Positions 1-64,000 of a stretch of 64,000 nt of DNA are shown here, piece after piece; positions within the stretch are counted from its first letter, which is position 1, and each line of letters begins with the position of its first letter. The notes beneath the pieces are model-generated. The model worked only from the letters and a program-made list of their open reading frames with translations, searched no databases and was not told where the DNA came from. The stretch spans positions 12,451,001 to 12,515,000 of the forward strand of contig NC_090287.1 of NCBI RefSeq assembly GCF_037392515.1. The letters are read 5' to 3'. Origin of the DNA: Haliotis asinina. Lineage: Eukaryota; Mollusca; Gastropoda; Lepetellida; Haliotidae. The translations under genes were made by a program, and so were the position numbers.

Positions 1-3000
1 TTTTGCGGCTAAGAGGAAGCATTTTTCACAGCGGAAGAGAAGGTTGTCGTCTCCAGCGTCGTCGTTGGGATCTCTGCCGGACGACCCTGACTTACAACCG
101 CCTTCAGCGCCTGTGCCGACGCCTGGGATGGGGCGTTCGTCCAAGACGCCTGTACGTTTGTCCCCGGAACCACCTCGCTCGGATTCCATCGTGGATCTGT
201 TTTCGTCCGGAGGCTTGTCTCATCCGGAGGTCCAGAGGTTCCTGCGCTCCCTCCTCACGCCCGGTGCTGCTGCGATGCCAGCGTCTGTCTCGACACCAGC
301 GCCTATGCCGACACCAGCGCCTGTGCTTACGCCAGCACCTAAGCCTACGCCGGCGCCTGTGCCTGCGCCAGCGCTTACCCCAGTACCTATGCCTGCGCCA
401 GTACCTATGCCTACGCCGGCGCCTATGTCTACGTCAGCGCCTGTCCCGACACCAGCGCCGACGCCGGACCCTGTGCCAGCGCCAGCACCTGCGTCCTACC
501 GTATACCCAGGGTGTTGCATACGTTGTCCAGGGAAGAGGTTTTGCAACGACAGTTGGATGAAAGGCGCGCTCGGCGCTTGGAGGCAGAGAGCTCTCGGCG
601 CAGATCGCGCTCCAGGTTCCCTGGGAGTCGGCGATCCTGTACCCTCCACAGTAGTCTTTGTCGGAGTTCTCGGTCCCCGCGACGCCCTTTGAATGTGGAC
701 TCTCGCTTTACTACCAGGTGAAGATGTTACTTGCTCTCCCAGTCCATATCACCTCGACATTCCTCTAGAACTCGGCGTTTGCGGTCACCGGAACCACCTT
801 GGATCCCGTCCAAGGAATCTGCTGCTCATGCATCGACTCCGTCTCTTACACTGCTGCGTGATTCGAATTCCATGTCCTGTGAGGACCTGGAGGTACAAGG
901 TTTTTGCCCGGACTTCGACGAGGAAGTAGGAGGCGACGGCGATGGTGATGGCACTTGACTACCCTTATCAGTCGTCTTCGAGTGGATTGCTGACAGGTTA
1001 CCGGACTGCCCTTCGCCTTCGGCTGATTCCAGCAACCCTGCAGCAATTCATTTATCACCGGAACTACTCATCCCGCCTCATCCTATGGTGGCGGACGCCA
1101 TGGTTGTATTACATGCGGTCTATGCGAAATTGTCAACTAATCCGAATTTCTAAGCGTGTAAGTCGAGGAAGTCAGATTACAAGATAGACAGCCTGGTTTT
1201 CGCGGACAGCGTGGCTGTCTTGGTTGTATCTCTGTAGCGGTTATTGGGCTCCTCGCGGCTCTCTCATAGAGTGCAGGATTCTAAGCAGGTGGCCATTGAG
1301 ACTGAACTCAAGCGGATGCTTAAGCCGTTGTCTGCGCTGGCGTCAGCTACCTCGGCGGCGGCGATGGACTTGTGTGAAGACAACGCCTCGAGGATCGATC
1401 ACCGTACCAGATATTCCTACGCCGGTAGGTGGGAGGGACTGGTCGCATCCCCGTAGATCCTTACGTTACAATTTGTCTACATATACTTCAAGCGGAGAAA
1501 GTTTTCTTTCACGTGCTTTACTCATTTCGTCACGAAGATTTTACGAGACAACAACAAAGTGACATGCCTAACTACACCTCTTATTACAAGAGAGGACGGC
1601 ATTTATCTTCGGGGAAAATTCCAACACATCTATCTGAAAAACAATTTGTCTACGTCAGTTTCAAGCGGCGGAAGGGTTTTCGCGCGCTTTACTCATTTGG
1701 ACACGTGCTCGCAAACAGCATGGTTACGGTCAAGCCTATAGGCTAGCAGGGTATCACCGTTTACAAGATTTCATGATGATCAGTTACCTGCTACACCGGT
1801 GACGTCACGTCTACATTTTGATTGGTGCCCGAGAGACAACGCCCTGCAAAGGATCCCAGGGTCGTTACATCTACAATTTGATTGGTCATCGAGGGACAAC
1901 GCCCTGTGCAGAATGTGTTGTTATGATTCTAGTGTAAGGAAGTTGTCTGCAGTGACTTACAGTCATTTTACAATGGAAAGATGTCGTTTACACTCTAGAC
2001 TAGCAGTCTACAGCGGCATTGGATTTCTCTAGTCGGCATAGAAATCCTCTAACAGTAGTCTCAACGCTGCTTATCAGGAGGCGTGCAGCGATGTATGGCA
2101 GTTTCTGATCGGACAGACGGCCAGTTATAAGTAGACTTCTTGAAATGTCAACACATTCATAATGTACAGCTTGTTGTTCTGAAGTCGAAGAATGACGCAT
2201 TTTTATGGCATACAAGCTTATCTTGAGAGAGTTGTACTTCATTATCAGGCTGTTAAGTCAGCTTCAACTAACTCCGCGGGATTTGATTCATCACATCGCC
2301 GTCCCAGGTTCAGGGGTCGAAGTTCAAGGCGATGTTAAAAGCAAGCTGTACTCTGTCCGTTATCACTATGTCAGTGATAATGTCTACTCGATTTGCTCAC
2401 GTCACCTTAGGATATGATCAGACGTAGACGTCTACTATTACGTCTAAGACAGGTTTAGGACTTTGGACGTCTTGACTCCACACCAGTGGTAGACTCGCTG
2501 GTCAATGTTTGGAACTTGCATATTAGAGCCGTCATTCAACAACCATCTTTAGGTTGACACGTCTCTACCAGGATTGAGTGCCTATCTAGTCAAGGAGGTT
2601 GCAGCAGGATTCTGGGGGAGTGGAGCTCTATCTCTTCACATCACCCAGTTGAAGATAAAAGCGGTGATGCATGTCTATTATTGGTTGACAGCACCGAGAG
2701 ACAAGCTACTGATGATCCATACGGTCAACTCAATAGTAGCCCTTTAGGTAAACAAGGGTCAAGGAGGCCTCGACCTCTACTACACTTGTCGTTTCTACCC
2801 TTCGACGTGGTCGAGTCTGATCCTCCAAATAAAAGTATCTCACATACCAAGAGCCTGCATCTTCATGGCAGACGCCTTATCTCGCCCCCTACGTCTATCT
2901 CCAACAGAGAATATGTTGTGTCGAGAGACGTTTCAAATAATCTGCTTCCAGAGTGGGACCAATTGTTGTACCATCCTCACAATTGGACACTGCACCTGGA

Positions 3001-4973
3001 TCCGTCACGGTTTCATCTTTGCGCCTGGACCATCTGTGATAGTCTTGAGGGCCAAGGGGTACTCATCTCAAGTGGCGAAATTAATCACCCTGGAGCACAG
3101 GGTTTCCACTCAGTCACTTTATGGACCTGCAGGCGTGGGCGATCGACACGATCCTGCGACTGCTTTTGGTCGCACCTTGGTGGCCAGCCAGGCCATGGTT
3201 CCCCGACCTGCGTCATCTCGCCAGCGGAGAGTCGTACCAGCTCCCAGATTAGTTACGTCTGCTTCGACATCCGCACAGTCGGCAGCTGCATCCGGACCCA
3301 CTGAGATTTCATCTTCACAGTAGGGTCATCTGCAGAAGGCAATAAGAGTTAAGGGCTACTCCTTGTGCGTGGCAAGCGTCCTAGCTTGTACGCATCGAAT
3401 GTCCACTAGGTCCTTATATGACGACAAGTGGCGCTCATTTGAGAGTTTTTGCGCTCAAAGATCGCAAGACCCTATGACAGCTTCTCCACAGTATTTAGCA
3501 AACTTCCTCCTGTTCCTGCATAACTGCAAGCATCTTAGAGGCAGTACCTTGGGGACTTATCTGTCGGCTTTGAACTCTATTCGATTAAAGCAGATAAACA
3601 GATTTCCAAGGTACCAGATCTTATTGCGCTACTCAAGGCCTGCAAATTGGAGGACCGGAAAGTTAAGCTTCGTCCTCCAGTTTGGGACCTCAACATCGTC
3701 CTACAACATCTTAGAGGACCTCCGTATAAGCCTTTAGAGGAAGCCTCCTTCGTGTATTTGTCTCAAAAAAAAAAAAAAAAAAGGACGGTCTTCATTCTAG
3801 CGTTAGCTACTGCAGATAGAGCTAGTGAAATTCATGCCCTGGACGTCACGCAGGTTCGCTTGGATCAGTCGAGGCATGGACCAGCCCACTTGGGTCTCCT
3901 GTGAGATTTTGTGGCCAAGAATCAGCTCCCTGGACAGCCAGACAGGCTGTTCTCCATTCCTCTGTCATCTGCAGTCTTGGGACAACATGACTTGGAGGAG
4001 GAGCTGCTGTGTCTCGTTAGAGCCCTCAGATGTTACATCCGGAAGTTGGCTTCTAAGAGACGTTCCCCTAAAAGACTGTTCATCCCGCTTTCGACTACCT
4101 GCAAAGGGGAGGTGAACAGGAACACAGTCGCCTTATGGCTTCGATCTACGATCCTGGCGGCTTTTGATGCCAAGCGTCTACCTCATCCAGTGGCAAACAA
4201 CCCACACGAGATCAGAGCGTTGGCATCTACCATGGCCTTCCATAGAAATTGCACAGTGCCACAAACTATGGAAGGCTGCTTTTGGAAGTCGTCTACTGCC
4301 TTCGCTTCCAACTACCTGAGGGACTTGGCAGTTGAGGACATGGAGTGGGAGCTGCTGTGTCTCGTTAGAGCCCTCAGATGTTACATCCGGAAGTTGGCTT
4401 CTAAGAGACGTTCCCCTAAAAGACTGTTCATCCCGCTTTCGACTAACTGCAAGGGGAGGTGAACAGGAACACAGTCGCCTTATGGCTTCGATCTACGATC
4501 CTGGCGGCTTTTGATGCCAAGCGTCTACCTCATCCGGTGGCGGACAGCCCACACGAGATCAGAGCGTTGGCATCTACCATGGCCCTCCATAGAAATTGCA
4601 CAGTGCCACAAACTATGGAAGGCTGCTTTTGGAAGTCGTCGTCTACTGCCTTCGCTTCCCACTACCTGAGGGACTTGGCAGTTGAGGACATGGAGGGACT
4701 ACAGTCTTTCAGTCCGTTGGTGGTTGCCCAGCAACTTACCCGGACGTCCGCCCATTAGGTAATAACACTGTTACTTACCGTTGGTCTTAAGATTAACCTC
4801 ACCCTCAGGGTGCGTCGGTTTTTCTTTGGAGTTCCCTTGGGTTACTCTTTGTCCTGCTTCCAGGTTTGTCCTGTGACTGTTGGCATTGGTCTCCCAGGTT
4901 CTCCTAATGCATGTGCACTGGTTGCTGAGGGATGGTCCTCCGGAGTCCACACCACCATCCATCTGTCGAAGCC

Positions 4974-23351: not shown

Positions 23352-26300
23352 ATGAAGCGACGACTCCCCAAAAGCAAAAACGCTGGTTCGTGTCTATTAA
23401 CCTATTAACCCCAAATAAGAGATTATCAGTTTCTGTTTACAAATATCGGTACATCTGAGAAGCCACGACACGCTGTGCCGAGTTGCTTCCCCTTTCTAGC
23501 TGGGGCAATACCAGCAATGATTTAAAGCTTTGTACCCAATTTGAAAGCAGAATCATTTTCACATTAAAATCATTTTTTTTTTTCGTACTCGGACCTTCAT
23601 TGAGATGGCATTTCATGTTTAGTTATTTTTGCCTGTATGGTTCATTTTAATGTACTTGCAGAGCCAGTGAAATCGCCAAAGGCGAAAAGAGCCCGTCCAT
23701 TCTTGACGGGCGAGGTACTCCAAGACACACTGGGGAAGAAATGGCGTCTGTTATCGGAACTAGCTGAGGGCCACATGGGACCTATATACGCAGGTAGTTT
23801 TCTCGTTGAAATTTATATCATGCTTTTGTTTGAGAATTTAAATACTTTCTGTGTGGTTAATTTGACCTGGAAACAGTACGGATTTCACATATGGTAAAAA
23901 TATGAGCTCGAAACAATAGAGCTGGTGAGCTTGAGAGATAATAGAAGTCAGATGTCAACCCGGCTTGGATTGTTGTGCCCATGCTTATTATTGGTCAGTG
24001 ACCCAGTCGGTCATGTCACTGTACCCCATCGGAATGGGTCGTTTGTCATGCCACCACCGGCTTGCTCTCCTTGACCAGATCGCCTTATGTACATGCAGGT
24101 TGTGCAAAATATAGTGTTATGCATACACTAACGTATAAACTACTGAGGAAAACAAAAACAGGCATCAAACTGTGAATGCTGCATTATTGTGTACTGAGAA
24201 ATTGCGCTTACGTTCCCAGTGATGTTATCGTCGGCGCCTCATCTGCACGTCACCTGTTGTGAGACCATCGCAATATATTAAATACCGTTTTTAATACCTA
24301 TCATATACATCATAACTTCAATAAACCATGGATGTGTGCTTCCTTTTGCCTGGTCTCCTGACTAAACTAAACAAGATATCTTAATTCGTAATGATTGATG
24401 TCGAATTACATAAGCCCCAATTTTCAAAATTTTTTTTTAATGCTTTGAATCTTTTTTTTCAGCGACATCCGATGGTGCTGCATCAAAGTCGGAAGAAGAT
24501 GTCGTCAAAATTGTGAGACTTTTAACATTGACTGTTTAGGGTAGCTCTCTGAGTATTGTTTCTTTCCTAAAGTGTGCAACTTGTTTGGATAATGCAAGAA
24601 GGCTGTCCTCAGGGTCGTTCCCAGGAATGTTAATCATATAGTGGTACCATGGCAACCCAGCTGTGTAGGCATATGGACCATGCAGTTGGTGTCATTTAGC
24701 CACTTAATGCTGATAGTGCATGGTTGTTGATTCAAGATGTGGTTGGTGTGTATTATCCATGGATATTAGCTGTTGTGTTCTCTCTTTAGATTGACTGTGG
24801 TATGTAAGTGAGAACGTCCGGTTAATAAATGATATTTTTCCAGTTATTAATATATAAATTTTTCCAGAATAGTAGAAAGCGTGAGCAATAAATCAATGAG
24901 TTTTGTACAAGGCTACTTAGAACATTATAACAGCTATATCACTGCTGTGATAGTTTAAAGGGCATAATGAATCGGAATCGGCATCTAGTAGGACAACCTG
25001 CAACTGAAAATGCCGATAATGAATGCTTGGCAGCCTGCTTAGCAGTATTTCCAAGCAGGTCAACAACCAAAAAACGTAACCACAAACACACAAATCCAAA
25101 CGGACTCATGGTGCGATCTTACTGGAGGTAAAACACTCCGGGCAATACACCAGCAGATCCAGATTAAAAGTGAGTCTAGCTTTACGCCGCAATCAGCAAT
25201 ATTCCAGCTATATGGCGGCGATCTGTAGATATCGGAGTCTGGACCAGACAATCCAGTGATCAACAACATGAGTATCGATCTGCACAATTGGGAACCGATG
25301 ACATGCGTCAACTAAGTCAGCGAGCCTGACCACCCGATCCCGTTAGTGGCTTCTTACAAGCATAGTCCCCTTTTATGGCAAGCATGGGTTGCTGAAGGCC
25401 TATTCTAGCCCGGAACCTTCACGGGTTAACAACAGTTAAGCAGATGCACAAAGTGTCTTTGTTCCATCTTAAAAAGTACATAGGCTGTGACGAACCTTGA
25501 ATAAGGTGCAAGGTATAGGTTTGTTTGTAGTATGCACTATATCGGGACACATTTATTCTTTATCGCTGTATTAACGAAAAATGTAAGTTACAGACAACAC
25601 GACGCAAGGGAAAATGGGAATGTTGGCAAGCACTGGTTTGCAACAGCCGTTGTGGCACTGCCTGGGCTTTATTTTTCAGGAAATAAAGAGCAGTGGCCAC
25701 CTGTTCAACGAGAATGTGGTTTACCAGGGAATGGGAGTTGCCAAATTAGGTTTGTATATGTTGATATTCCTTCAGGAGAGAGTTGACCATCGGGGATGAG
25801 TTATATTGATGAGTGCATAGTGTTTTACGCCGCTTTTGGCAATATTTTAGCAGTATAACGGCGGGGGACATCAGAAACGGTCTTCACGTATTGTAACCAT
25901 GTGTGCCATCGAACCTTCAGCGTGACCAGCGGATGCTTTAACCATTCTTAGTTGATGAAATGTTAACCATTCAGTATTGATGATTGGGAAATGGTTTAAT
26001 AGCAGAGTATATATTGTACACAGTCTCAAGTCAACTGACATGAAAACGCGGAGGATTTGCTCCCAAAATGAGGCTCTGTTCTGATGTCCTCTATTGCTCA
26101 CAGTGGCTTTATAGCAAAGGGCTTATTGTGTATTTCAGATACACACTAAGCAATGTGTTGTGAGTTAAGGATCTACAGTAAAGAAAAGCACCTATCGTCA
26201 ATACTTGACGAGACACTGGTATTTTTCAGCAGTCAGCGACGAGTATTGTTTTTGCTTCGCTTTTAGCAATATTTCAGCAATACCACGGCGGTGAACACTA

Positions 26301-29300
26301 GAAATGAGCCTTAGACAGTACCCATGTGAGGAATCAAACCCAGGTCTTCAGTCAGACGATCGGTCGCTTTAACCAGTCGACGCTTTAAGCGATCAGCGAC
26401 ACGAATAACGTTCCATCACGTATCTTACGTGTCCGTGTAGCTTATGTCATATACGTGTTCATATTACAGCTAAGAAGTGGACTAAGGATCGTGGCTTGTC
26501 CTATCTAGGGATCCCTGCACCCCGGGGGCAGGGGATGCATAACCATGAGGGTGAGGTCTACAGGTTCCTGGTGTTGCCGCGGCTTGGGACTGACCTTGAC
26601 ACGTTGCTGGGGACAGGGAAGATGCTGGCATTCAAGGACGTTTCCAACATGGCCATCGCTCTGGTACAATAAACCTTAAGGATTTCCTTGCCAGAACGGA
26701 CCCACCCAGCACACCCTGCTTGTCCAGGGAACAGTGCAGTAGGGATAAAGTGTTGAGTGTTGTGGTCATGTGACTGGGCGTTATCATGCCCACATGGAAC
26801 GTGAATTGAACCTGCTGATGGGCAGCGGAATGTCCTAACTTCTTCAGTCACTGTCGGTTCATTTTATCTCTTAACGCAAACAATTTGACGTTTGACTTTT
26901 TAAACATTTTCTACACCAGTTCCAATAATTACTGAAACGTTTTCCTTGAACCTACTGACGGGCAGCGGAATGCCCTCACTTCGTCAGTTACTGTCCGTTC
27001 TCATTTTCGCAGTTAAAGCAAACGATTTGACGTTTGACTTTTTAAACGTTTTATTTCACACCAGTTCCAATAAACTTTGAGCATGTTTTTCTTTCACCAC
27101 TTTTGCAACCCCATGATGCCCTTAGAATTTTCTGTTTTTAAGTTCAGTGGGTTACTGACTGAGTATTGTCTTGTTTTAATTCTTTGTCCCTCTAAGGAAA
27201 TACAAAACATGATGAATAATCAGCGAGTATCGCCAGTATGTCATGACTTTTTTCTGTTTGTTAGGTGTCAGGATGTATGGGATGTTTACTGCAGATATGA
27301 TGGGATCTGTTTCCATAAGCTGAACTTATCTACCATAAAACTCTAAAGGAAGGTTAACACTCGTTTTTCTCTTCAATCACGACAAACCCCCATTTCTTTG
27401 CCTCTCCTTTATGCAGATAGACTGTCTAGAGTATATTCACGAGCACCACTACGTTCATGGTGACATCCATCCCGCCAACATCATCGTCGACGATAGCAAA
27501 GGGACTACTGGCAAAGAGAAAATGGTTAGTATAAGGGTCCACCAATAGACCAGTAATAGCTAGTTGCCCGCAGTACTCTAGTCTGTATGTTTGGGTACCG
27601 TCCCGATCTACCTTTAGAAAATCAGCTGTATTCTAATCGTGTGAACTGTGATCCGTTTTGAAATTGAATCCATACTTGTCCAAAGAGGCCACCAACGGAA
27701 TTGGTGGCCAAGTTCCCGTAATTAACACATATCTTCCGGTCTATGTGCCGTCGGTCTATAAATAATCAGAGTGTGGATCAGACAGTCCAGTGATTGACAT
27801 CACGAGCATCCATCTGATGTGTGCACGACTGGATTGTGTTTCAGACCCGTCCACACAGCTGTAATATTGCGTGTATTATAACTGTGTATTATAAACCAGT
27901 ATCTATACCTTGTTCACAATAAATGCCCACTGTAATACAGGTGGTCTTTTGAAGGGTTGCCAGGGTTACTTATTTTTCCAGGTGCACCTTATCGACTACG
28001 GCTTGGCAAAAAAATACATGGTAGATGACAAGCACAAGTCATACCAGGAAAGCAAGTTCCTGCCGGATTGCCCCACATTGTACATGGGCGTGGATGGGCA
28101 CAGAGGAGCCGGTAAGCCAGTAATCGTCTGACAGTGTACAATGCCCGCTGCCAAGATCAGAGTTGGAATTATTCTTCAGCTGTCAATGTCGAAAGACTTC
28201 CGCTGACATGGTTCATGCACGTTATCGTGTCTCTCTTGAGTAGGTCCATGTCCACAATGAACTGTAGGATGGAGCATGTCAGATTGTGTCTCAACAGACC
28301 ATTACCATGCAAATCCCGACCGTCGCACTGATTGAGAACAATCCCTTAAGATGTTCTCAAAATTTAATAACGCCATGAACTGACTGTCATCTTTATGATT
28401 ACAGCATCTTAACATAATATCAAAATTGGTGAAGTAGGGTTGACATTTCACTCTCCCTGTTTGTCATTTCTGTCTGACGTGACAATACCTAATATGTGGA
28501 ATACTAATCATGACAGTATTTTGTAGCCCTCGTCCATAAATACTAATCATGACAGTATTTTGTAGCCCTCGTCCATAAATACTAATCATGACAGTATTTT
28601 GTAGCCCTCGTCCATAAATGCTATGACGCCTCATCGAATGCTCAGGATCTACACCGTTCTGTCAGGACATGCAATCGGTCATCCATATGTCTATCTCCTG
28701 GGTTATTCCCAAACTATATGGTGTAACAGTTTCCCCCGACAACCCTGATTCCTGCTATAATCTCTGATCTGTCCACAGATCAGTCACGACGTGGGGACCT
28801 TGAGATGCTGGGCTACTGTCTGCTGAAGTGGCTAAGTGGCAGACTGCCCTGGGAGGACAAACCCCAGGACAAGAACTATGTCCGAGATTCAAAAATAAAG
28901 TAAGCTACAAAAATTATATATTTTTCAATTTTATACAAAGGACCTTAACCCTGCCGTATGTGTTGTTCTAAAAGCAACCAGTAAAACGCATAGGCGATTT
29001 CATTATAAGTAACTGAATTCTGACAAATAACCATGACTTTCATAGTTCATCTACTAGCCTATCAGTATATTAACTAGGGTCGCCTGGTGCCAGTAATTGA
29101 GTTCTTGGTTTCCACGCACATTTGATTTACTGTATTTACTGGGGACACGTGTTTATTTTAGACTTAATCCTGTAATACATGCTCTTTTCTTGGATTGGGT
29201 CAGGTTCAAGGAGGATATAGCATCAAAGTCGGATTCACTTTCATGGATAGATGACCCGCAGGCAAGAGGTACTGACATTTTTCAAGCAGAACCTATGTAT

Positions 29301-30564
29301 CTGGTGTACATGTATATCCAGTGATACTAACACGGGCTTGTCAAGTTAAGATCATCAGCACAAGAGGTGTCATCCTCTGCACTTCCAGAAATCTACAGTA
29401 AACGATATGTGAGCCCTGGAGATAGTGAGGATTTAAGATATAGAACTACAAGGGTGAAATTAACACGGCAGTCTCATATTTACCAACTAAACTACTGTGC
29501 TGGTTGTTTATACGACAAGTGTCACTTTGAGTTTTTTCTTTTTGTATTTTTTTTATGTTTTTGTTGTAATTGTTTTCTCACTAAAACCAGTTTTTCATTA
29601 TCAATGTTCCCGGCGTCGTAAACATCACTTTATTAGTAAATATTAGTTGTATGAGAGAATGACAGATCGCCTTGGAAACATTATTTCAGATACTGAATGA
29701 GTCGAGTCAGTTTTCATTTTAGTCATGCTGAGACATCAGTGATGATTGTCATACCGAAAGTAGGATTTGTATCACAACCATCGGAACCCTGCTATGATAA
29801 TCTGGCAAGGTACCTTTTTGTTTGTTCCAGGAGTGTTGTTGTCCTACTTTGACTATGTCTGTGGTCTAGACTATGAGGAGAAGCCCAGCTATGACACTTT
29901 GAAGACCTTACTTCAGGATCTTGTCAAAGGGCCAAAGAAAAAGGAGACAACAGCTTCTGCCAAATCCAAGGGTTCCAAGGCTCGTCACAAAACCCCAGAA
30001 CCCCAACCCGTTTCCGATATATCTAAACCAACTGCAGGTGTGAAAACAACCAAGACAAGTAAAGCTGCAGGCGCTGGTGTATCAAAGGAAACACAGGTTG
30101 ACGACCAAATAAAATCCCCAAACGGTAAATCTCCAAAACAAGCTTCCCATGCAAAAGAAACGAATCCTAAAATAAAGAGGAGGAAACCCGTAATGATAAG
30201 TCGAGGCAGTGGGAGGGACACGGGCGAGAATTCTAAACCTGATAAAAAACACAGCATGAAAACGAGGCCCACCACGAAGATTACCCTCAACGTCGGAGGT
30301 ACAGAGTTTGTGACATATTCGACGACTCTTCAGAAGTATCCCTCCAGGCTGGTCGATATTGCACATGAAGCTGTAGAGCATCAAGACATCCCTTTCATTG
30401 ATCGTGACCCGACATTGTTCCCATACATCCTCAACTTCCTGCGCGACGACGGGCAGACGACACTACCTGAAACCACACAGGACCTGAGAAAACTGCGCCA
30501 GGAAGCTCGCTACTTTAATCTCACGAGTCTAACGGATGAAATCGACCGTCTTGTTTTAGAATAG
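23352..30564 (+). CDS. VRK-family (atypical) kinase fused to a C-terminal KCTD/T1 BTB domain
   Basis: Ten-exon model: 23352-23385, 23662-23793, 24463-24512, 25680-25749, 26470-26663, 27417-27524, 27982-28111, 28779-28899, 29204-29268, 29831-30564. All phases agree, giving 545 residues. Residues ~25-330 are a vaccinia-related kinase domain: degenerate glycine loop (LAEGHMGPIY, 45-54), VVKI with Lys71, FNE with Glu83, YLGIP, YVHGDIHPAN (172-181), IDYG (200-203), RRGDLEMLGYC, LPWED and YVRDSKI. Residues ~333-450 are a Lys/Ser/Pro-rich linker. Residues 451-545 form a T1-type BTB domain (ITLNVGGTEF, IDRDPTLFPYILNFLRDD, EARYF), ending at the stop. Kinase tail and BTB share one 734-bp exon, so the join is not an artefact of exon chaining. 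The Lys of the VRK HGDIKxSN loop is His178, so catalysis may be weak or altered. By family, VRKs are Ser/Thr kinases and T1 domains oligomerise or bind CUL3. The role here is unknown. The first 34-nt exon is the least certain: its phase fits, but the donor is weak. Confidence 0.85.
25166..25427 (-). repeat. Abalone-type SINE, family A, inside VRK-BTB intron 3
   Basis: Reverse-orientation copy with TTTACGCCGCAATCAGCAAT, CCAGCTATATGGCGGCGATC, CAGACAATCCAGTGATCAAC, GACCACCCGATCCCGTTAGT and the end GGAACCTTCACGGG. Confidence 0.85.
25808..25950 (-). repeat. tRNA-derived SINE, family B
   Basis: Reverse-orientation copy. The shared tail is seen as TTTTACGCCGCTTTTGGCAA. The tRNA-like head is decayed, with ATCGAACCTTCAGCGTGACC resembling the B-box region of better copies, and GCTTTAACCA near the A box. 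Confidence 0.6.
26236..26388 (-). repeat. tRNA-derived SINE, family B
   Basis: Reverse copy with GCTTTTAGCAATATTTCAGC, ACCACGGCGGTGAACACTAG, CCATGTGAGGAATCAAACCC (B-box side) and GTCGCTTTAACCAG. It lies in VRK-BTB intron 4, about 80 bp before the next exon. Confidence 0.7.
26806..27078 (+). repeat. Tandem duplication of about 135 bp in VRK-BTB intron 5
   Basis: Two copies in tandem share GGGCAGCGGAATG, CAATTTGACGTTTGACTTTT or its near match, and ACACCAGTTCCAATAA. Unit 1 is about 26806-26943 and unit 2 about 26948-27078. The copies differ by scattered substitutions. Confidence 0.65.
27690..27875 (+). repeat. Possible heavily decayed family A SINE
   Basis: Fragments resemble the family core in order (AACGGAATTGG, TAATTAACACAT, GACAGTCCAGTGATTGACAT, CACAGCTGTAATATTGCGTG), but similarity is low and the order partly mixed. 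Confidence 0.3.
28500..28616 (+). repeat. Three identical 39-bp tandem units in VRK-BTB intron 7
   Basis: The unit AATACTAATCATGACAGTAT followed by TTTGTAGCCCTCGTCCATA occurs at 28500-28538, 28539-28577 and 28578-28616 without differences, implying very recent expansion or homogenisation. Confidence 0.9.
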
Positions 30565-31102
30565 GTCAGTATATACTGACGTTTTGTTTTAAAGTTTTGA
30601 TGAAACAGTATTGTTCATGGCTTTTAGCCTTGATAATACATCTGCCCTCAATTTTCGATGAAGACCGATCTTAAACGTTTTGAGGAGAACCAGATTGTTG
30701 CTTATGAAGACTCTTACAATATTTCAGATAGCCCTGTATTGTAAAGTACGCTCTCAGAACAGGGTTTATAGTTATAGGGAAGGGATATGGACATCATACG
30801 GTCATGGTAAATTCTGACCAAAACAAAGCCTAATTTTATGAAGTACACTGGTCAAGTTTAACATAGAATGGGTGGGTCAGTGTTTGCCAAAACATTATCA
30901 TTCATTTATACATCATATTTTAAATACATGTGGAGCATTCCCGCTCTTTTTTATATTTTGATGTACATTTATTTACATGAATCCCTCGCCAATTTGTATC
31001 GCTTGATTCGCTTGATTCCTCTCTGTCCCGAAATATGTTGGGGAGCTGGAACTAGGGTTCACAACATAAAGAATACAAGTCACAAATGAATTTCGTCACA
31101 TA
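30565..31102 (+). other. 3' flank/UTR of the VRK-BTB gene
   Basis: No coding content was recognised between the VRK-BTB stop codon and the Tc1 element. AATAAA motifs at 33015-33020 and 33030-33035, beyond the Tc1 element, are possible polyadenylation signals, though distant. If they are used, the transposon lies within the 3' UTR. Confidence 0.35.
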
Positions 31103-32535
31103 TACTGAACCGCAAAAGAAACGCGAGACATGTAATAGTCAACAGTGTTTTAATTTCATTAACACATAGGTAAAAAATGATACATGATTAGTTCCTCAGC
31201 TAGCATACACTATCACAATGTTGTGTTTTCATGAGAAAATCTGGCACAAAGTAGTCATGGCATGCTTATTACCGGGTATGCCCTCCCTGACTATTTAACA
31301 CTGCCATACAACGTCGGTACATCGAGTGAATGAGGCGGTTCACGAAACCCATCGGTACTTGTGCCCACACTCTGAGGAAAGCTGCCTGCAAATCAGCACG
31401 AGTTGTCGGTCTTGGAACCACCTGGTTCAGACGCCTCTGGATGTCATCCCAGAGGTGTTCGATTGGGTTCAGATCTGGACTGAGGGCTGGCCATGGCATG
31501 GTTCTGATGTTGTGCTGACGTAAGAAGTCCATAGTTAGCCTAGCTGTATGGGGACGTGCACTGTCCTGTTGGAACACGTGATTCCGGTGACGTGCAAAGA
31601 ATGGTACGATGTGAGGTCTGAGGATCTGGTCGATGTACCGCTGAGCTGTGATGCCATTCCCTCGTCCTGCACCAAAATTTTGAAACATATGGGGTCCTAT
31701 CCTCTGATCCAGCCCTATTGCACCCCAAACCATGATGCTTTGACCACCCCATGCATTTCTCTCCACAACACAATCGTCTCTGAAACGTTCACCCTTCCTA
31801 CGCCAAACCCTCACTCTACCGTATCGGCCCTCATTACGAAAGACTATTGACCTCCATTGTCGATGCCGCCAGTGCTGGTGTTGTCTAGCCCATTGCATTC
31901 TTGCTTGACGGTGACGGGCGATGAGGATTGGCCCTTGAGCAGGACGACGGCAACGAAGATTGTGTGCTGCAAGGCGCCGTCGTACTGTATCCTCGCTGAT
32001 GGGTCTCTGTCGGGTGCCAATAGTCTGTCGAGCTGTCAAGGAGGCTGACCTGAAGGGATCTCGAAGGTGTTGCCTATGGATGAAGCGGTCCTGTCTCGGA
32101 GTGGTCACTCGGGGGCGTCCAGTGCGAGCATGGTTTGCAGTACTGTTGGTGGTGTTTGAACGCTGTTCAGACGGTGGATGGTACTGACGTGGACATTGAA
32201 AACGTCTGCTGCTGTCAATCGTGGCATGCTTGATTCTTCCAGACAACAACTGCCAAAAGTCTACTCTCCACTCAGTCTTATACCCAGAGGCAACATGAGA
32301 TGCACGTGCATTTTGGCTACCTCTAAAAATGTCTGCAACCTCTATCCATGGCGCTCAGATGTGCTCCGTTTTGGCGTTACGTTTCAGGATCCTAAGGTTA
32401 CTTCCTGCAGTTGTTGCAGAAAAAAACTTTTTTTATGTCTTGAGTTATCTACAGTTTTATTTTCAATAAATTTTCACTACATTTTACACTTGAAAGTACC
32501 GTTTGGAAATTTCGCGTTTCTTTTGCGGTTCAGTA
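31103..32535 (-). mobile_element. Tc1/mariner element, 1433 bp, with complete ends
   Basis: Terminal inverted repeats TACTGAACCGCAAAAGAAAC (31103 on) and GTTTCTTTTGCGGTTCAGTA (ending 32535) match over about 24 bp, and TA lies outside both ends as expected for the TA target site. The interior is filled by a minus-strand transposase gene. The terminal repeats are short relative to many Tc1 elements, and no longer inverted repeat is visible. Confidence 0.9.
31269..32249 (-). pseudogene. Tc1-family transposase, inactive
   Basis: A 326-codon frame reads as Tc1 transposase: TGRPRVTTPRQDRFIHRQHL, the tail of the DNA-binding region; MVWGAIGLDQRIGP; VFQQDSARPHTARL with the second catalytic Asp; and SPDLNPIEHLWDD with the third acidic residue. 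The region normally reading like FSDESRF is collapsed to FRNEGRY, with several residues lost, so the first catalytic Asp is missing. The expected helix-turn-helix (FNVHVSTIHRL) lies in another frame upstream, so a frameshift is also present. The protein should be inactive, though the element ends are complete. Confidence 0.85.
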
Positions 32536-53010: not shown

Positions 53011-53681
53011 TTAACAATTGGGAATACTGCAGTGTTCCCATCGTACTGAGGGATCTGTAGTGTAACACCACGGTATATTGTCACCGTGTTCCGCCAAGCA
53101 CCTGTTCCCCGCCTCCTCCATACTGGTAACTGTTTGCATGTTGCTTGGCGAGTCGTTCCTCCCGAGATGTTCATGGGGTGTGTGGGAGTCCCATCGCTGA
53201 CATGTCTTGCCGCTCTTGGTCACATTGTGCATTCCTCCATAGAAAGCCCTCCCTCCTTCAAACTGCACACACAGCTTACCTTGATAGACACAAGTCAAGG
53301 TTAGGGCACATCGAATAGTATGGGACTGAGGTTTTCCTCCTGACAACATATTTATGAGTGAGTGGGTTTAGATTTTTTTCGCCGTTTTAGCAAAATTCAA
53401 ACAATATCACAGCGTGGACACCACAAATTTGCTTTACATGTTGTACTCATGTGAGGAATCGAATCCGGGTCATCTGCGTGACGAGTGGACGCTTAACCCA
53501 CAGAGTAACCCCATAGCCCCCACATTATCATGAAGGCGAGCGTTGTACAGTTTCAAACAGTATTTCAGTTCTGTTACCCTTACACACCGATTGGGTGAGA
53601 TGTGAGTTAAGGAGATAAGATGGTGTTTTTTGTTTGTGTGTGTGTGAGTGTGAGTGTGTGAGTGTGTGTGTGAGTGTGAGT

Positions 53682-53760
<79 letters not shown>

Positions 53761-56700
53761 GTTCACATTGGGAATCAAACCCGGATCTTCGGCGTGACAG
53801 GCGAAAATATTTACCGCTTGGCTACCTCACCGCCCGTTTAAGAAGGAAACGTGAGCTGATTGGGAGGCCAGTTACGTCATACCCAAAAACATAAATGACT
53901 CAACTCATATTTACCCTGTCTGGTGAATGGCATTACTGGGGTAACATGAGGACGGATCTGATGAGAGTCGGTATCTGTGTCGCGATGCGTTATTCATTTT
54001 GGGCATGATAGATCCATCAAGATCCGGGCTACATTTGATCGAAGCGACTAACGGGATCGGACGGTCAGGTTCGTATGGCTGACCCATGTTATCGGTTAAG
54101 AATGAAGATTTTTATGGATATCAATTTCTTTATTATGAGAACACAACGTTTCGGAGTTAATGCTTACTCCTTCATCAGGTTGTACCTGTTGATGGATGTA
54201 ACTGCATCATCTCCATATTGATGTCGTATCAAGTCTTTGATGAAGGAGTAAGCATTAACTCCGAAACGTTGTGTTCTCACCCGATGAAGGAGTAAGCATT
54301 AACTCCGAAACGTTGTGTTCTCACCTGATGAAGGGGTAAGCATTAACTCCGAAACGTTGTGTTCTCACCTGATGAAGGGGTAAGCATTAACTCCGAAACG
54401 TTGTGTTCTCAGAATAAAGAAGTTGATATCCATAAAAATCTTCATTCTTATGTATTTCACTTCAAAGTCATGTTATCGGTTCTCAATTGCGTAGATCGAT
54501 GCTCATGCTGTTGATAAAATTGTTTAGACTCGATTATTTACAGACCACCGCCATGTAGTGGGAAAACTGCTGAGTGTGGCGCAAAACTAAACTCACTCAC
54601 TGTAGTACAGTATTTCACAGTGTTAGCAATAATTACCAGAAGTCGCGGTGGCTGAGTGTTCTTTGTGTGCTGGCGATTAGGTGCCTGACTCTGAGGGTGC
54701 GGGTTCGAATCCCGGATGGGACTCAACCGAAAAAAGGACTAGAATTTGTACTTTACTAAGAAAGTGAAATCCCAAATATAACATATGTTGCACCAGACGC
54801 CCAGACAAGCACAGACAACTACACCCTTTCATGCGTTATAGTTAATTTAATCACTCTCAACCGTGACAGAAGGGGGAAATAAGACTGAAAAATAAACACA
54901 TAAAAATCCTAATAATTACCATTCCTTCAGTTCACGAGGTACTGGCACCATTAAGAGAAGATATAGTGAATTTTAGCAATTATGTTAAAACGGTAAACAA
55001 ATCAAACGAAACATTCTAAACACGTGTATCTCGCACGTGTATCTCGTGTATCATGCTGCTTAGAAACAAATACCTGTTCTAAATCAGCACGAGCGCATGT
55101 TTAGACAGGACTTACGTTCTATGCATTGAGTGGTGCCGTGGATACAGACACTTCCCCGGGGGCAAGGGCGAGCAGCACATGTGCCGACAAGTGCCTGTAA
55201 GTGAGAGAGAGAACATTCTAAATGCCACCATCAAACCGCTTTCTACACGAAAACTCTTTGACATTTAGGAAATATTTAGCTGTCTGGTGTTTAAAACAAT
55301 ATGGTGTTAATTATTTTATTAAACTTATGGTATAAACATTCACTCGGCTGTTTTTTATGATTTGAAGTAAATGTAATTACATCGCTTCCTGTGATAGCTA
55401 GACTTGCGCAAGCCTCTGAGGTAAACAAAATATAGTTTAAGTGATAATTTCTGAAAAAATGACCAATAAAAGACACAAGTCCTTAGACTTGCACAAGTCT
55501 CTAAGGTGAAAATTTATAGTTTAACTGATAATTTCGAAAACATAATGCATAACAGACTTGGGTCCTTGGAATAACAAACCTGTGAGTTTACTAAGTTGGC
55601 TAATTACACGATGAGTATTTCATGTAAGAATGGAGGCTGTGCCTCATTTCTACCCAGGAACCTTGCCAACTTCCGTTCTTAATTTAGGTTTAAGTCCATA
55701 CACGTATTAGTACGTGTTAGCTGGAACTGCGATTGTAGATTGCAAACCCGCACGCTAGGCATATACAGTTTGAGGTGTTGTTGAGGTGTCCAATTAAAGA
55801 ACTCTCGGATAAAAAGTCTACTCTGCTGAGTTATAACTGTTCACAACAAAGAAAAAAATCCACAAAACATTTCATTATCCAAATATTGACAACCAGATCG
55901 ACATGCAATGTCACGCAGAACTGAAGAGAACATCATACAGAGTGTACAGAGTACAAAGTGATGTAGGTGTAAGATGTGTATCACTAAATAGCGAAACCAA
56001 ACACCACATATGCTGACAGACATAAAACACAAAAGGTTAGAACCTCAGTTGTGGCAGACCAGTGGACGGTTTGAACTCGTTTGTGTTCTACTGTCTGAAT
56101 GGGGTTGCGCAACAGAGAAAAATGACCAGTGTTGCAGTGTGCCTGTGAATCAACATTGAACCCTTGTGTTTATGGGCACACACTTAAGCATAAAGTTGAA
56201 TCCTTACTGAAAACAATGTCAAAGAGCAATGAGTTCAGTGTTTAGCGAAATTCCAGCAACATCACAACGGGATGGGCTTCATCAACATACAAATATGGCT
56301 AATCGAACCCGGGTCTTTTGGCGTGACGAGCGAACGCTTTAACCACTAGGTTACCGCACCGCCATCTGGGTGAACAAATGTGCTGTAGCTCAACAGATTC
56401 AAATTTTTCGAAATCTAAGGAAACATGAACGGTTTCGAGCGAAACTGCGCAGCCAGAATCTTGGCGTGTCTGTCTTCTTTGATAAAGCGCTGCAGTATGA
56501 AGAGGTTAAAAGACCATCTTGGGCACGTGTACCAGAACGGTACTGACACGTGTACTATGGTAAGTCTTCCTCTCTCTACCTGTATCATAGTTTGATTGTG
56601 TAACGGACGTGTGGTTGACAATACATGAGCCATTTGTACTTATGATAATTTGCACCTAAAAGCCTCCCCATCAACCACAGTATGAATAGTTCGGTGTGCA

Positions 56701-59700: not shown

Positions 59701-62401
59701 ATAAGACAAAGTTTACGGATGTCAAATTCTTCTTTATTGTTTGCACAATGTTCCTGTGGTATTCCTTGCCCCTTCGTCGGGTGGTTGGTAATTAACAGTT
59801 AAACAGGTCCTGCAATTTAATGGCAAAAATAATAGGAACAGAAACAAATTGGAAAATATCATTCACGTTGCAGAAACAGTGGTCAAGTTTCAAAAGTTGG
59901 CATATTCTGGACATTCTATGTGAATATACTATTTCTTCCACAGACTGGATACGTCAACGACGTCTCTCTTTAGGAATTCCTCCTTACTCCTATTGCAATA
60001 CAATGGCTATTTGTCGAAGAGTCTGAGGCGTGTTTTGACAATGAGGTACTCGTCGATCGAATTCATCCCTTAGGTGTTCTATCGGGTTTAGATCTGGTGA
60101 TCGGGAAGGTCATGGCAAGACATTGACGTTAGAATTGTCAAGGTATCGGACTGTGACACGTGCTATATGTGACGTAGCGTTGTCATGCTGAAACATTTCC
60201 ACGTGTCTGCCCATAATCGGAATATAATGACTTCGTTGAGGTACCGATTTACTGTCACATTCTCCTGAACCACTACCATCAGATTGTTCGCTGGATATCG
60301 CACTCCACACCAACACATTGCCTCTACCGAATCTGTCGACCTATCGGATGTAGTTAGGAGCAAGACGTACATTTCTCTGAAGGGAAACACGCTGTGTCCC
60401 ATCTCGCCCGTGAAGAAGAAATCGTGATTCATCAATGGAACAGACTTGACTCCAGTTTCAGAACTCCACCGCAAGCGATTTGCCCCTTCGTCAGGTGGAT
60501 GCTAACTAACAGTTCCGGTCTCACTTATGAAGTCCACCCCGAAATAAATGAAGATAGTAATGTTAAAATGTTATGGGCCCAAACATGTGGTGTAGACTCT
60601 CTTTTTTGAATCGACCATCTTGCATTAGAAGATTGCAGACTACACTGCCCCCAAAAGCGTAAACATGTATTTATTGCAGAAATACACAGTTGCATATAGT
60701 TCAATGAAGAAATCTTAAGAGCAGGATGGAAAAAATAGCAACATTGTTTAACATTACATTTCATTGCCATGTTACGCGATATTGAGCTGCAATTGATGTG
60801 AGCTACAAAACATACCAGTTTATGTTTGAAGTTACAAAGTCAATCATGAGATCGTATGCATGTTGTTGTCATGAAAAGGTGACTTGGGAATATTGGACGA
60901 GACAAACCATTTTATAATTCAACGACTACATGAAAAATATAATAACAATGTTTGACCACACGATTCCATTTTAGGTCTGCTTGCGGACGAACGTGTTACA
61001 GGTCGCCTATTCCAAATCAGCATCTGCAGAATTTGAAACACTTAACTCCTTGTGCTAATAATTTCGAGGGTTTTCACCACAGCAAATATTTAATAATTTA
61101 AGTAGAATTGGAGGCAGCCCAGTTGTTTAAGACCCCTCACCTCGCTGCGTAGAGTTGCGTCTCTTTGGCTAGTCAGGAATCTGTCCTCGTGGGTTTTAAC
61201 TACTGCTTCGCCAGATCATATTTTTAGGTTGGTCAGTCCTATAATTTTGTCAATTAGTTTCAAGTAAGAAATGTAGCTGCATCACTTCAGGCTTTTCTTC
61301 ACCTTCAAGTAAGTGAGTGAGTTTAGCTTTATGCCGCGCTCATCACTATTCCAGCTACATGGCGGCGGTTTGTAAATAATCTAATGTGGAAAAGATACTC
61401 CAGTGATCAACAGCATGAGCATCGATCTTCACGATTGGGTTACGATAACATGATTGTTTATGCACGGAATACTCGCCATGTATAATACGATTCACTCGCC
61501 AAATAGATTTACAAGTGAATTATGACTACGAATTTGGGCTGTGATCCTCAATACCCACGATATATCACCGCTAGCATTGTATTTTATGTTACCGAATGTA
61601 TAAGGCTGTTTGTTGTTTTTCGAGTCCAGACAAGCCGCTGATTTCTTGTTATCCCCTGCAACGCGTTTTGCGGGGGTATTGAAATGGACTTCACCGTCCG
61701 TGTGTCAGTCCGCACGTTTGTCATTTTCAGAGCAGAACTCCTTGGCAACAAGTTTGACTTAAATTGTTGGCAGTTCACCATCCATATTTCTTCAAAAAAA
61801 TTGGCATATATATAGGTCTGGTGGTGAACTTGAGCCTATGGTAGTTTGGAATTTCTGAACATTTTTTTTGCATGTTCATGGAACACGTTTGCCTTCAACT
61901 CACTTTGGTTGCAGAGCTCCTTTCTGGAGCAGAACTTAAATACTTTCAATATGTTCCTTCCCCTTTGCTATTTACACTGTAAAACATTTGACATAGTCAT
62001 AACTAGCAGACATATTCATGAAGAGTATTTTGCAGTTAATTATCAATACCCTACTATGACAATACCTGTGGTAAGCTATCGGCATTGACGTTAATCCATC
62101 CAGGTGCGTTGACTACCATTCCTGGTGTTGTAGTAGATGTTTCGTGGTTCAGCTCACACGAAGACGTATCTGTGTCGTAGTTGAAGGAGGTACAAATAAC
62201 ATCATACATGCACTGCATGGCACAATGGTACTGGGTACGTGAGGACTTCATAACATAGGTGGAGCCCGACAGACGCTGCTTTTGGAACACACTGCCGGAA
62301 AGTCTCTCTGAGAGTTCGGTACATGCCATGGCTGCTTGAGTCACACTCAGAAACAAAACTACCACAACAGATACCACATTTATCATCGTTGACTTTGTCA
62401 C
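53011..62401 (-). CDS. Secreted PAN/Cys-rich/kringle protein
   Basis: Three-exon minus-strand model: 62401-62066, 55194-55116 and 53279-53011, with matching phases (0, then 1), giving 227 residues. Residues 1-26 are a signal peptide (VVSVVVVLFLSV core). Residues ~27-112 are a PAN/apple-like domain (Cys27, HCAMQC with Cys60 and Cys64, Cys70, SFNYDTDTSSCEL with Cys82). Residues 113-138 are Cys-rich (GTCAARPC, GSVCIHGTTQCI). Residues ~142-227 are a kringle with six cysteines and the diagnostic SGKTCQRW, PH, IPWCYTTDP and EHCSIPNC motifs, ending at the stop. PAN plus kringle recalls plasminogen/HGF proteins, but no protease domain follows. Such domains bind proteins or glycans outside the cell, by family knowledge; the ligand is unknown. 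The donors fit well (GTATTG, GTAAGT), while the kringle acceptor (TCAAG) is less usual. Extra exons in the 6.9-kb intron cannot be excluded. Confidence 0.75.
53353..53521 (-). repeat. tRNA-derived SINE, family B
   Basis: Reverse copy: ATGAGTGAGTGGGTTTAGAT, CGCCGTTTTAGCAAAATTCA, GTGAGGAATCGAATCCGGGT (B box), GCGTGACGAGTGGACGCTTA and AACCCACAGAGTAACCCCAT. Confidence 0.8.
53625..53840 (-). repeat. Family B SINE head attached to a TG/TGAG microsatellite
   Basis: The tRNA-like head (GGGAATCAAACCCGGATCTT, GCGTGACAGGCGAAAATATT, TACCGCTTGGCTACCTCACC) at 53763-53840 abuts a long TGTG/GTGAGTGTG repeat (about 53631-53758) where the SINE body and tail are expected. The microsatellite could have arisen from the SINE tail or by insertion beside it. 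Confidence 0.7.
54138..54178 (-). ncRNA. Hammerhead-ribozyme-like motif, minus strand
   Basis: Read on the minus strand: CTGATGA core, a perfect stem II (GGAGT/ACTCC around AAGCATTA), then CGAAAC and GTTGTG. This matches the conserved hammerhead order CUGAUGA-stem II-GAAA with a very short stem III. It faces the array at 54238-54414. Confidence 0.55.
54238..54414 (+). ncRNA. Tandem array of four 44-bp hammerhead-ribozyme-like units
   Basis: Four head-to-tail units of GATGAAGG(A/G)GTAAGCATTA then ACTCCGAAACGTTGTGTTCT and a CACC-type joint. Each has the stem II pairing GG(A/G)GT with ACTCC closing a loop AAGCATTA, followed by GAAAC and a possible two-pair stem III. Two of the four keep the complete CTGATGA core. 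Helix I pairing between tandem units is not obvious, so self-cleavage, possibly as a dimer, is unproven. Confidence 0.5.
54648..54775 (+). repeat. tRNA-Leu-like SINE
   Basis: The head GTCGCGGTGGCTGAGTGTTC (A box), a long variable-arm-like section, and GGGTGCGGGTTCGAATCCCG (B box) resemble a type II (leucine) tRNA, followed by a non-tRNA body (GGACTAGAATTTGTACTTTA). The arms do not form a clean cloverleaf, so it is a tRNA-derived SINE rather than a tRNA gene. Confidence 0.6.
56226..56366 (-). repeat. tRNA-derived SINE, family B
   Basis: Reverse copy: TAGCGAAATTCCAGCAACAT, GATGGGCTTCATCAACATAC, AATCGAACCCGGGTCTTTTG (B box) and GCTTTAACCACTAGGTTACC (A box). The tRNA-like head is well kept. Confidence 0.8.
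56690..56825 (+). repeat. Family A SINE fragment
   Basis: CAGCAACCAATGCTTGTCGT, AAGAGGAGACTGACAGATCC and GACTCGCTGACTTGGTATTC match the family core; the 3' part decays into unrecognised sequence. Confidence 0.6.
56988..57046. repeat. Short tandem repeat, 17-bp unit
   Basis: About three to four copies of TACGACATATCGTAACC with few changes; each unit contains a small inverted repeat (TACGA/TCGTA). Confidence 0.75.
57286..57405 (-). repeat. tRNA-derived SINE, family B, decayed
   Basis: CCACTTTTGGCAATATTTCA, GCAATATCAGGACAGGGGAG, TTTACACATTGTACTCATTC and AGGAATCAGGTCTTC. Confidence 0.6.
58430..58600. repeat. Diverged tandem repeat, about 30-35 bp unit
   Basis: Repeated variants of AAAACCAAACGTGAAA and TGAACCCATAGT/TGAACCCAGAAGT with irregular spacing. 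Frames crossing it look periodic only because of the repeat. Confidence 0.55.
59767..59799 (-). repeat. Penelope-end-like direct repeat, copy 1
   Basis: TTGCCCCTTCGTCGGGTGGT plus 13 more bases recurs at 60479-60511 with about five differences. Read on the minus strand, GACGAAGGGGCAAG and the following bases down to about 59705 (AATAAAGAAGAATTTGACAT) parallel the end of the Penelope-like insertion at 54.4 kb (AATAAAGAAGTTGATATCCA). Confidence 0.45.
59940..60475 (-). pseudogene. Decayed Tc1/mariner transposase
   Basis: Minus-strand fragments in shifting frames read as Tc1 transposase: MNHDFFFTGEMGH (position of the first catalytic block, FTDESRF-like, Asp not kept), MLVWSAISS, VVVQENVTVNRYLNEV and FQHDNATSHIARVTVRYLDN (second catalytic Asp kept). 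Downstream fragments match the DLNPIEHL region only weakly. At least two frameshifts are present. Element ends were not identified. Confidence 0.7.
60479..60511 (-). repeat. Penelope-end-like direct repeat, copy 2
   Basis: TTGCCCCTTCGTCAGGTGGA and following bases match 59767-59799 in the same orientation, on the other side of the decayed Tc1 transposase. Confidence 0.45.
61313..61455 (-). repeat. Abalone-type SINE, family A, truncated
   Basis: Reverse copy: AAGTGAGTGAGTTTAGCTTT, ATGCCGCGCTCATCACTATT, CCAGCTACATGGCGGCGGTT, CCAGTGATCAACAGCATGAG and GATTGGGTTACGATAACATG; the 5' half is missing. Confidence 0.8.
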
Positions 62402-64000
62402 TGCGTGGGCAACGGTTAAGCATTCGTAGAGTCAAAATCACCTCTTTGTATTAATTGCAAGAAAATGTCACAATGTTTCCAATTATGGTCCAGAAACACT
62501 GTACTGTTATCTTCTTAGTCAAAGCTGATACCGCTAAGCATGTATTTTGTAAGGAACTCTCAACTGTCTCATCTTGCGTTTTCCAGCAGTAAATTGTTTT
62601 CATGAAGTTGTGACTGCGCAAGGTCCTGATGAGCTTGCGTTGTAAAGAAACTTCGAACTACATCGATCTTTGAAGTTTCCTTGGATACCTCTTTTGTTAA
62701 AGACACGGCGAATGATGATCTCATTTCTTTCACAGTCACAGACTGGAGTATGTCATGCAGCCAACACAAAGCCAGGAGAACAAATGCTAATTTATGCAGT
62801 GGTAGTCTGTTCAATGACGGATCTATACGGTTATTTGTAATCATTGTGAAGTGAAGAGACGACGTCTTTGTTGGCGGATATCTACCATGACGTTTTTGTC
62901 ATTCATATTTTGATCGGCGGGAAGCCTGGTTGCGTTCACTATTTCCAGCATCAAGTAACAAGTTATTTTTTTGTTGTTTTGTTTCATGTGAAACGGAATG
63001 CTTTTATGTTGTTAGGGAGACACATGAAACAATCAACCCAGCTCATGAATGACTGACATTTAATGTTCTACTGTTCAATTCTCATAAACTTTCATGCGAG
63101 TGTAGAGACTTCACACAACCTATGCAGCATTTAACATCACCGGTTTACACATTTGCTGAAAATGAATGCAGCTAAGTGTACTACGTTTTATGATACTTAA
63201 TTTCAAACAATTTCATTTCCAAACACATCATTTTCGTATAATGAAGCAATTTCAAAGTTTACATGGCAAGATCCCGGTAACCCTGAGTACTTTCGCCACC
63301 AATGCCAGAGGATATCCAGTTCCATTGACCACCAACAGGTAAAACCGTCAAATAGTAGGAAAAAGTCAAAACAGTAGTGAAAGGCAGTTATGGCACCCAG
63401 ACGAATGAGCATGTCCTACTCTACTTCAACACTCTCATTCTGCACCATTTGACCAGAAAAGCAATTTCCTGTCTGTTTTCCAATACGTTAACAAAAGTCA
63501 GAACATGACAAGCCAGGGCTAATGAGTATGAACCATTAGAATGACAAGACATGTTTGTCGATGAAGCCGAAAATAATCTGACGGGCTGAAAAAACGGTAC
63601 CATGGAATAAAAAACAATATCGTGCAATAACAACAAAAGAAAGTGAGGCAATTCGAGAATAGTAGACTCGGTCTCTTTACATACGAATTATTCGAAACGA
63701 GCATCCTTCCTATGGTATCTGACGTCGCAGTTCGTTATTCACACCTTTAATTAGTGTTACCTGGGACTCGTGGAGATTGCAAATCAGTTCGCTATAGCCA
63801 TTAAGTACGTGATAGGGAATTTGTTTTTCACGACTTTTTGATATGATAACATATTGTGGTTTATTCGGGACTTTTAAAACAGTTCGCTATATCTGTCACT
63901 TCGTTATATCCGTGTTCGTTATAAAAGTATTCTACTGAAATTCGTATGTAATGAGGCCGAGTGTGATATTTTATTTATTCTCCACGCCATACATGCACTA
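62402..64000. other. Upstream flank of the PAN-kringle gene
   Basis: This should include the promoter of the minus-strand PAN-kringle gene. Open frames here are short and unremarkable. I see no repeat family that I can name and no convincing exon. Confidence 0.4.

Follow-up and report, generated by a model that had tools for sequence, protein, structure and literature searches.

Does the genome of the abalone Haliotis asinina encode a VRK-family kinase that carries a KCTD-type T1 (BTB_2) domain in the same polypeptide, and what would such a protein do? The question is raised by a locus in a 64,000-nucleotide stretch of DNA (NCBI RefSeq assembly GCF_037392515.1, contig NC_090287.1, positions 12,451,001 to 12,515,000 of the forward strand), hereafter the window, in which all positions are counted from its first letter. 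VRKs are conserved chromatin kinases, and we know of no described VRK to which a T1 domain gives an assembly state. The VRK-T1 gene lies on the + strand at 23352–30564, and its ten exons encode a predicted protein of 545 residues. Judged from its sequence, it is a well-supported fusion gene. The T1-bearing VRK that it encodes is of questionable strength as a catalyst, and a VRK-family kinase whose active site is altered could, once joined to an assembly domain of KCTD type, become part of a many-armed complex.

The fusion had been proposed in an initial annotation of the DNA and was borne out by our analysis. Residues 5–335 match human VRK1 (E 2.1e-71, among sequences of solved structures) and residues 452–535 match Pfam BTB_2, both well beyond chance and within one frame of 545 residues. 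The five VRK motifs quoted in that annotation (YVHGDI, IDYG, RRGDLEMLGYC, LPWED and YVRDSKI) and the T1 block were found where it had placed them. Its argument that the fusion is contained in a single exon also stands: the kinase C-terminal helix (residues 302–335), the linker rich in Lys and the complete T1 domain follow one another in exon 10 with no stop and no change of frame, so that their join needs no splicing. The open frame that holds them (29764–30564) has 266 codons, including an intronic lead-in from intron 9.

The upstream exons were placed by hand from translated reading frames and then joined. Together with exon 10 they give 545 codons and a single terminal stop; a pseudogene was rejected, as the joined codons hold no internal stop. 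All nine junctions are GT-AG, with compatible phases across the joined exons. On a rough home-made donor matrix, five donors had scores above zero and those of exons 1, 4, 5 and 9 had negative scores. Since four of the nine donors score below zero, the main support for the junctions is that the VRK alignment runs through them unbroken. The least certain exon is exon 1, which contributes only 11 residues. Immediately after the stop codon TAG comes a donor-like GTCAGT (30562–30570; score 2.78 on the same rough matrix), and the 3' untranslated region may contain an intron. AATAAA and ATTAAA were sought between the stop and position 31300, and neither was found there.

Table 1 Features of the VRK-T1 gene. 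Positions are those of the window.
Feature	Positions	Strand	Content
Exon 1	23352..23385	+	residues 1-11; ATG start; donor score below zero
Exon 2	23662..23793	+	residues 12-55; N-lobe, G-loop AEGHMG
Exon 3	24463..24512	+	residues 56-72; VVK carrying the ATP-binding lysine K71
Exon 4	25680..25749	+	residues 73-95; helix C with E83
Exon 5	26470..26663	+	residues 96-160; alpha-C4 region (W99), hinge
Exon 6	27417..27524	+	residues 161-196; catalytic loop HGDIHPAN; H178 at the VRK1 K179 position
Exon 7	27982..28111	+	residues 197-239; DYG motif, p+1 region DCPTLYMG; VRK1 T224/T228 align with P227/M231
Exon 8	28779..28899	+	residues 240-279; SRRGDLEMLGYC, LPWED, YVRDSKI
Exon 9	29204..29268	+	residues 280-301
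Exon 10	29831..30564	+	kinase C-terminal helix, linker, T1 domain; stop 30562-30564
Linker	29932..30276	+	residues 336-450; Lys-rich; KRRK patch
KCTD-like T1 (BTB_2) domain	30277..30561	+	residues 451-545; E 6.3e-10 to KCTD15, E 2.1e-16 to BTB_2

By its sequence, the kinase part is a VRK. In the comparison with sequences of solved structures (best 60 of 153 matches), VRK1 was followed by VRK2 (E 6.1e-59) and VRK3 (E 7.5e-44), and the VRKs ranked ahead of CK1 and TTBK, the best non-VRK match being the CK1-group kinase Gilgamesh (E 3.6e-30). A pairwise alignment with VRK1 gave 129 identities in 324 aligned positions, and the protein also matched Pfam Pkinase (E 2.9e-12). VRK family members share an alpha-C4 insert in which a hydrophobic and an aromatic residue pack on an aromatic of helix E (PMC2639636). 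W99 and Y166 are present at these aromatic positions, and A96 stands at the hydrophobic position three before W99 (positions by offset).

The T1 assignment was made by profile and by sequence. A profile search without T1 similarity had been named beforehand as a possible refutation of the fusion; the search returned a BTB_2 match of 60.5 bits against a cut-off of 21.4, and exon 10 by itself scored 62.5 bits (E 4.9e-17). Thirty-eight distinct solved-structure sequences matched the domain below E 0.001, with KCTD15 and KCTD1 (E 1.5e-9) on top; next, at little distance, came two entries bearing the name designed ion channel, along with KCTD16, KCTD10 and Kv4.2. The T1 domain is 29–34% identical to the seven human KCTDs compared, a range that does not allow it to be assigned a position among the KCTDs. 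In the usual KCTD layout an N-terminal BTB is followed by a C-terminal domain (PMC5664961). Here the T1 domain occupies the last residues of the chain with the kinase ahead of it, and the protein is thus classed as a T1-bearing VRK and not as a KCTD.

Between the two domains, the linker includes 23 Lys in 115 residues, with 29 K/R to 10 D/E, and KRRK at residues 417–420. Large hydrophobic residues make up 9.6% of the linker, compared to 33% of the kinase and 35% of the T1 domain. From this composition the linker is probably disordered, and the KRRK patch, which is nuclear-signal-like, may point to a nuclear location.

Catalysis by this VRK domain is uncertain because its catalytic-loop lysine and p+1 threonines are replaced. 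The loop reads HGDIHPAN in place of the HGDIKASN of VRK1, which puts a histidine at the position of K179, and the two VRK1 p+1 threonines align with a proline and a methionine. The G-loop keeps two of the three glycines of GxGxxG, the first one (VRK1 G44) being A46. A HMMER alignment to VRK1 placed the substituted positions identically to the pairwise alignment. The initial annotation had presented the kinase as one with normal VRK motifs; the motifs are there, but a histidine takes the place of the catalytic-loop lysine, and in the alignment other residues stand where the p+1 threonines would be. The lysine (hrDxkxxN) is conserved and important in catalysis and is absent in VRK3 (PMC2639636, Scheeff 2009), and the two p+1 threonines are conserved across all active VRKs and absent in VRK3 (PMC2639636; its VRK2 residue numbers were converted to VRK1 numbering with a fixed shift of 11). 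VRK3 has also lost G-loop glycines and the DFG Asp, while its catalytic-loop Asp is gone in human and in about half of the orthologs (PMC2639636). On the basis of these positions we lean towards a weak kinase activity, an active kinase being the main rival.

The explanation that we favour is as follows. At the N-terminus a VRK fold is followed by a Lys-rich linker, probably disordered and bearing a patch that resembles a nuclear signal, and this linker would tether the fold to the KCTD-type T1 domain at the C-terminus. Copies of T1 would most likely assemble with one another into a small, probably pentameric ring, and several VRK folds would then be suspended from a single T1 hub. Given the replaced catalytic-loop lysine and p+1 threonines, the VRK fold would probably be a weak or dead enzyme, and the complex would act mainly as a multivalent scaffold, or would rival an ordinary VRK, presumably encoded in the same genome, for partners such as BAF and chromatin. 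As a whole, a weakly catalytic multivalent scaffold or competitor is our tentative preference, held with somewhat less than even confidence.

Several observations weigh against a weak enzyme and speak for a competent VRK domain, whose copies would be gathered by T1 for trans-autophosphorylation or for chromatin substrates with many sites. The residues K71 (beta3), E83 (helix C), D176 (HGD), N181 and D201 (DYG) are all retained, and the identity to VRK1 given above points in the same direction. By the motif criteria tabulated in PMC2639636 (G-loop, beta3, hrD and DfG) the last three tests are passed and the only deficit is a mild G-loop change, so that this table would not flag a pseudokinase. 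The first p+1 position has a threonine, T228, as its direct neighbour, which makes the loss of the p+1 threonines alignment-dependent. VRK3, which is more damaged, was reported to phosphorylate BAF (PMC13030254). Set against the histidine of the catalytic loop, the p+1 replacements and the alanine in the G-loop, an active clustered kinase is possible, though we hold it to be rather unlikely. A different reading is that of two transcription units or a false join, in which kinase and T1 never share a protein; the cause could be a promoter inside the last exon, the use of alternative donors, premature polyadenylation or an error of assembly. Exon 10 includes donor-like sites at 30038 and 30125, AATAAA at 30108 and 30171 within the linker, and in-frame ATGs at 30193 and 30256, and these could be a source of shorter forms. 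However, a single open frame starts in intron 9, continues through the kinase helix and ends with T1, and helix and T1 lie in one exon, which needs no splicing to join them; we regard separate units as very improbable.

The choice between self-assembly and binding to CUL3 depends on the T1 domain itself. The initial annotation had suggested tethering to a CUL3 ubiquitin ligase, and a BTB_2 domain is indeed present; on this reading T1 would bind CUL3 and the VRK fold would recruit substrates, making a kinase-shaped ubiquitin-ligase receptor. KCTDs contact CUL3 with the alpha2-beta3 loop and the alpha4-alpha5 hairpin (PMC4431850), and 15 family members are known as CUL3 interactors (PMC10856315). 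The EARYF hairpin of the T1 domain holds a Tyr and a Phe at the site where aromatics pack on CUL3, but such hairpin aromatics are found in binders and non-binders alike (PMC4431850). The alpha2-beta3 loop is important for CUL3 (PMC10856315), and a chimera with a foreign loop lost CUL3 binding (PMC4431850). In the present domain the segment with this loop, counted from TL near helix 1 to IDR of strand 3, has 22 residues, 4–8 fewer than the 26–30 of seven human KCTDs that include both binders and non-binders (KCTD13, counted by hand, has 26), and is the shortest of the eight domains. We infer that so short a loop could prevent binding. The top-scoring KCTD15 and KCTD1 are non-binders (PMC10856315), while binders such as KCTD10 lie near non-binders in score against the present T1. 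The suggestion of CUL3 tethering is thus weakened by the short segment and by its non-binding closest matches, and a CUL3 adaptor seems to us unlikely.

KCTD BTB domains range from monomers up to tetramers and pentamers (PMC5664961), and KCTDs are mostly pentameric (PMC10856315; PMC5664961). Oligomerisation through T1 is plausible on these grounds, and self-assembly is the better guess for the function of the domain than CUL3 tethering. Two points in the literature count against this preference. T1 rings are not universal, as SHKBP1, KCTD10 and KCTD13 behaved as monomer-dimer mixtures (PMC5664961). In addition, the known non-binders are explained by long or rigid loops and not by short ones, and overall similarity fails to separate binders (PMC10856315).

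A second VRK or KCTD was looked for in the window and not found: tblastn with the kinase, the linker and T1 gave no match outside the gene's own exons at E < 0.7, and Rfam gave no match within the window. Intron 7 of the VRK-T1 gene carries a tandem array at 28500–28623 (39-base unit, 3.2 copies, 98% matches), and a second array (44-base unit, 4 copies, 97% matches) lies at 54238–54411. Short dispersed repeats were observed at 25197, 25832, 26259, 61344 and other positions, some of them in introns of the gene; we take them to resemble elements from abalone sequences. A 22-base word from 25197 occurs at 12 places within 5 mismatches, and a 33-base word from 26259 at 4 places within 8 mismatches, both counted without a chance control. 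An open 361-codon frame of a Tc-type transposase (31269–32354, - strand; DDE_3 2.4e-12, HTH_Tnp_Tc3_2 9.6e-12) lies 705 bases downstream of the VRK-T1 stop. The region 1–4700 has long frames, of which four were scanned and had no Pfam match, and a 347-base unit repeated twice at 3989–4696; it resembles a DIRS-type retroelement. Frames on the - strand with a Kringle domain (53011–53367; 1.1e-16) and a PAN_1 domain (62054–62431; 6.9e-8) are probably parts of extracellular protein genes.

The combination of domains was unfamiliar to the initial annotation and was also not found in the two sources that we searched, the open-licence literature of PubMed Central and viral contigs. Among the literature matches listed, no title or abstract beginning described a VRK carrying BTB or T1; one paper that contained both terms was a review of markers for rectal cancer. 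VRK and BTB do not occur in the main text of an oyster kinome paper (PMC4883820), nor does the word 'kinase' occur in a KCTD review (PMC13361646). In the viral contigs, T1 alone matched 10 stretches, with one locus of 15 residues that we considered to carry no information; there were 5 stretches for the kinase core and 51 for a two-sequence kinase alignment, neither set including a relative. These viral negatives say little, because only close relatives come within reach of the T1 and kinase-core scans and a VRK ortholog is present in most poxviruses (PMC2639636). The protein may well be present in automatic annotations of related animals. If the layout occurs in several species, it would be a stable new architecture; if it is confined to this genome, the fusion would be either recent or an artefact.

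With a T1 tail, a VRK would gain an assembly state that is not known to us from described VRKs, and the altered active site offers a case to compare with VRK3. The locus opens the question whether an assembly hub replaces or boosts catalysis in a VRK. It is conceivable, if unlikely, that this lineage made a ring-shaped, catalytically weakened VRK scaffold through a C-terminal T1 domain, by a route to a non-catalytic VRK separate from that of vertebrate VRK3, and that this scaffold competes with or organises the ordinary VRK on chromatin.

Known systems resemble the protein in one part or another. The match to the T1 domains of Kv4 channels (Kv4.2, E 6.1e-8) extends over some 60 residues at the start of the domain and no further, and no channel part is present here. 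T1 domains of non-Shaker Kv channels carry a zinc-site motif; the present domain has no Cys and thus no zinc site of this kind. A Kv-type T1 was rejected, as the Kv4 matches stop at about 60 residues and score below the best KCTDs. KCTD15 and KCTD1 share the T1-type BTB and match over nearly the whole domain (31 of 92 and 31 of 90 aligned positions identical), but here T1 ends the chain without a KCTD C-terminal domain after it, and the alpha2-beta3 segment is shorter. Human VRK1 (PDB 2rsv, 7tan) has the same kinase fold over residues 5–335 and shares SRRGDLE, LPWED and YVRDSKI; it differs in its intact catalytic-loop lysine, p+1 threonines and first G-loop glycine, and the tail of the present protein terminates in a T1 domain. 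Human VRK3 (PDB 2jii) likewise lacks the catalytic-loop lysine and the two p+1 threonines (PMC2639636). It is, however, a weaker match than VRK1, is also without the HGD and DFG aspartates that are both kept here, and has its extra domain at the N-terminus (residues 1–147; PMC13030254), whereas the T1-bearing VRK carries its own at the C-terminus.

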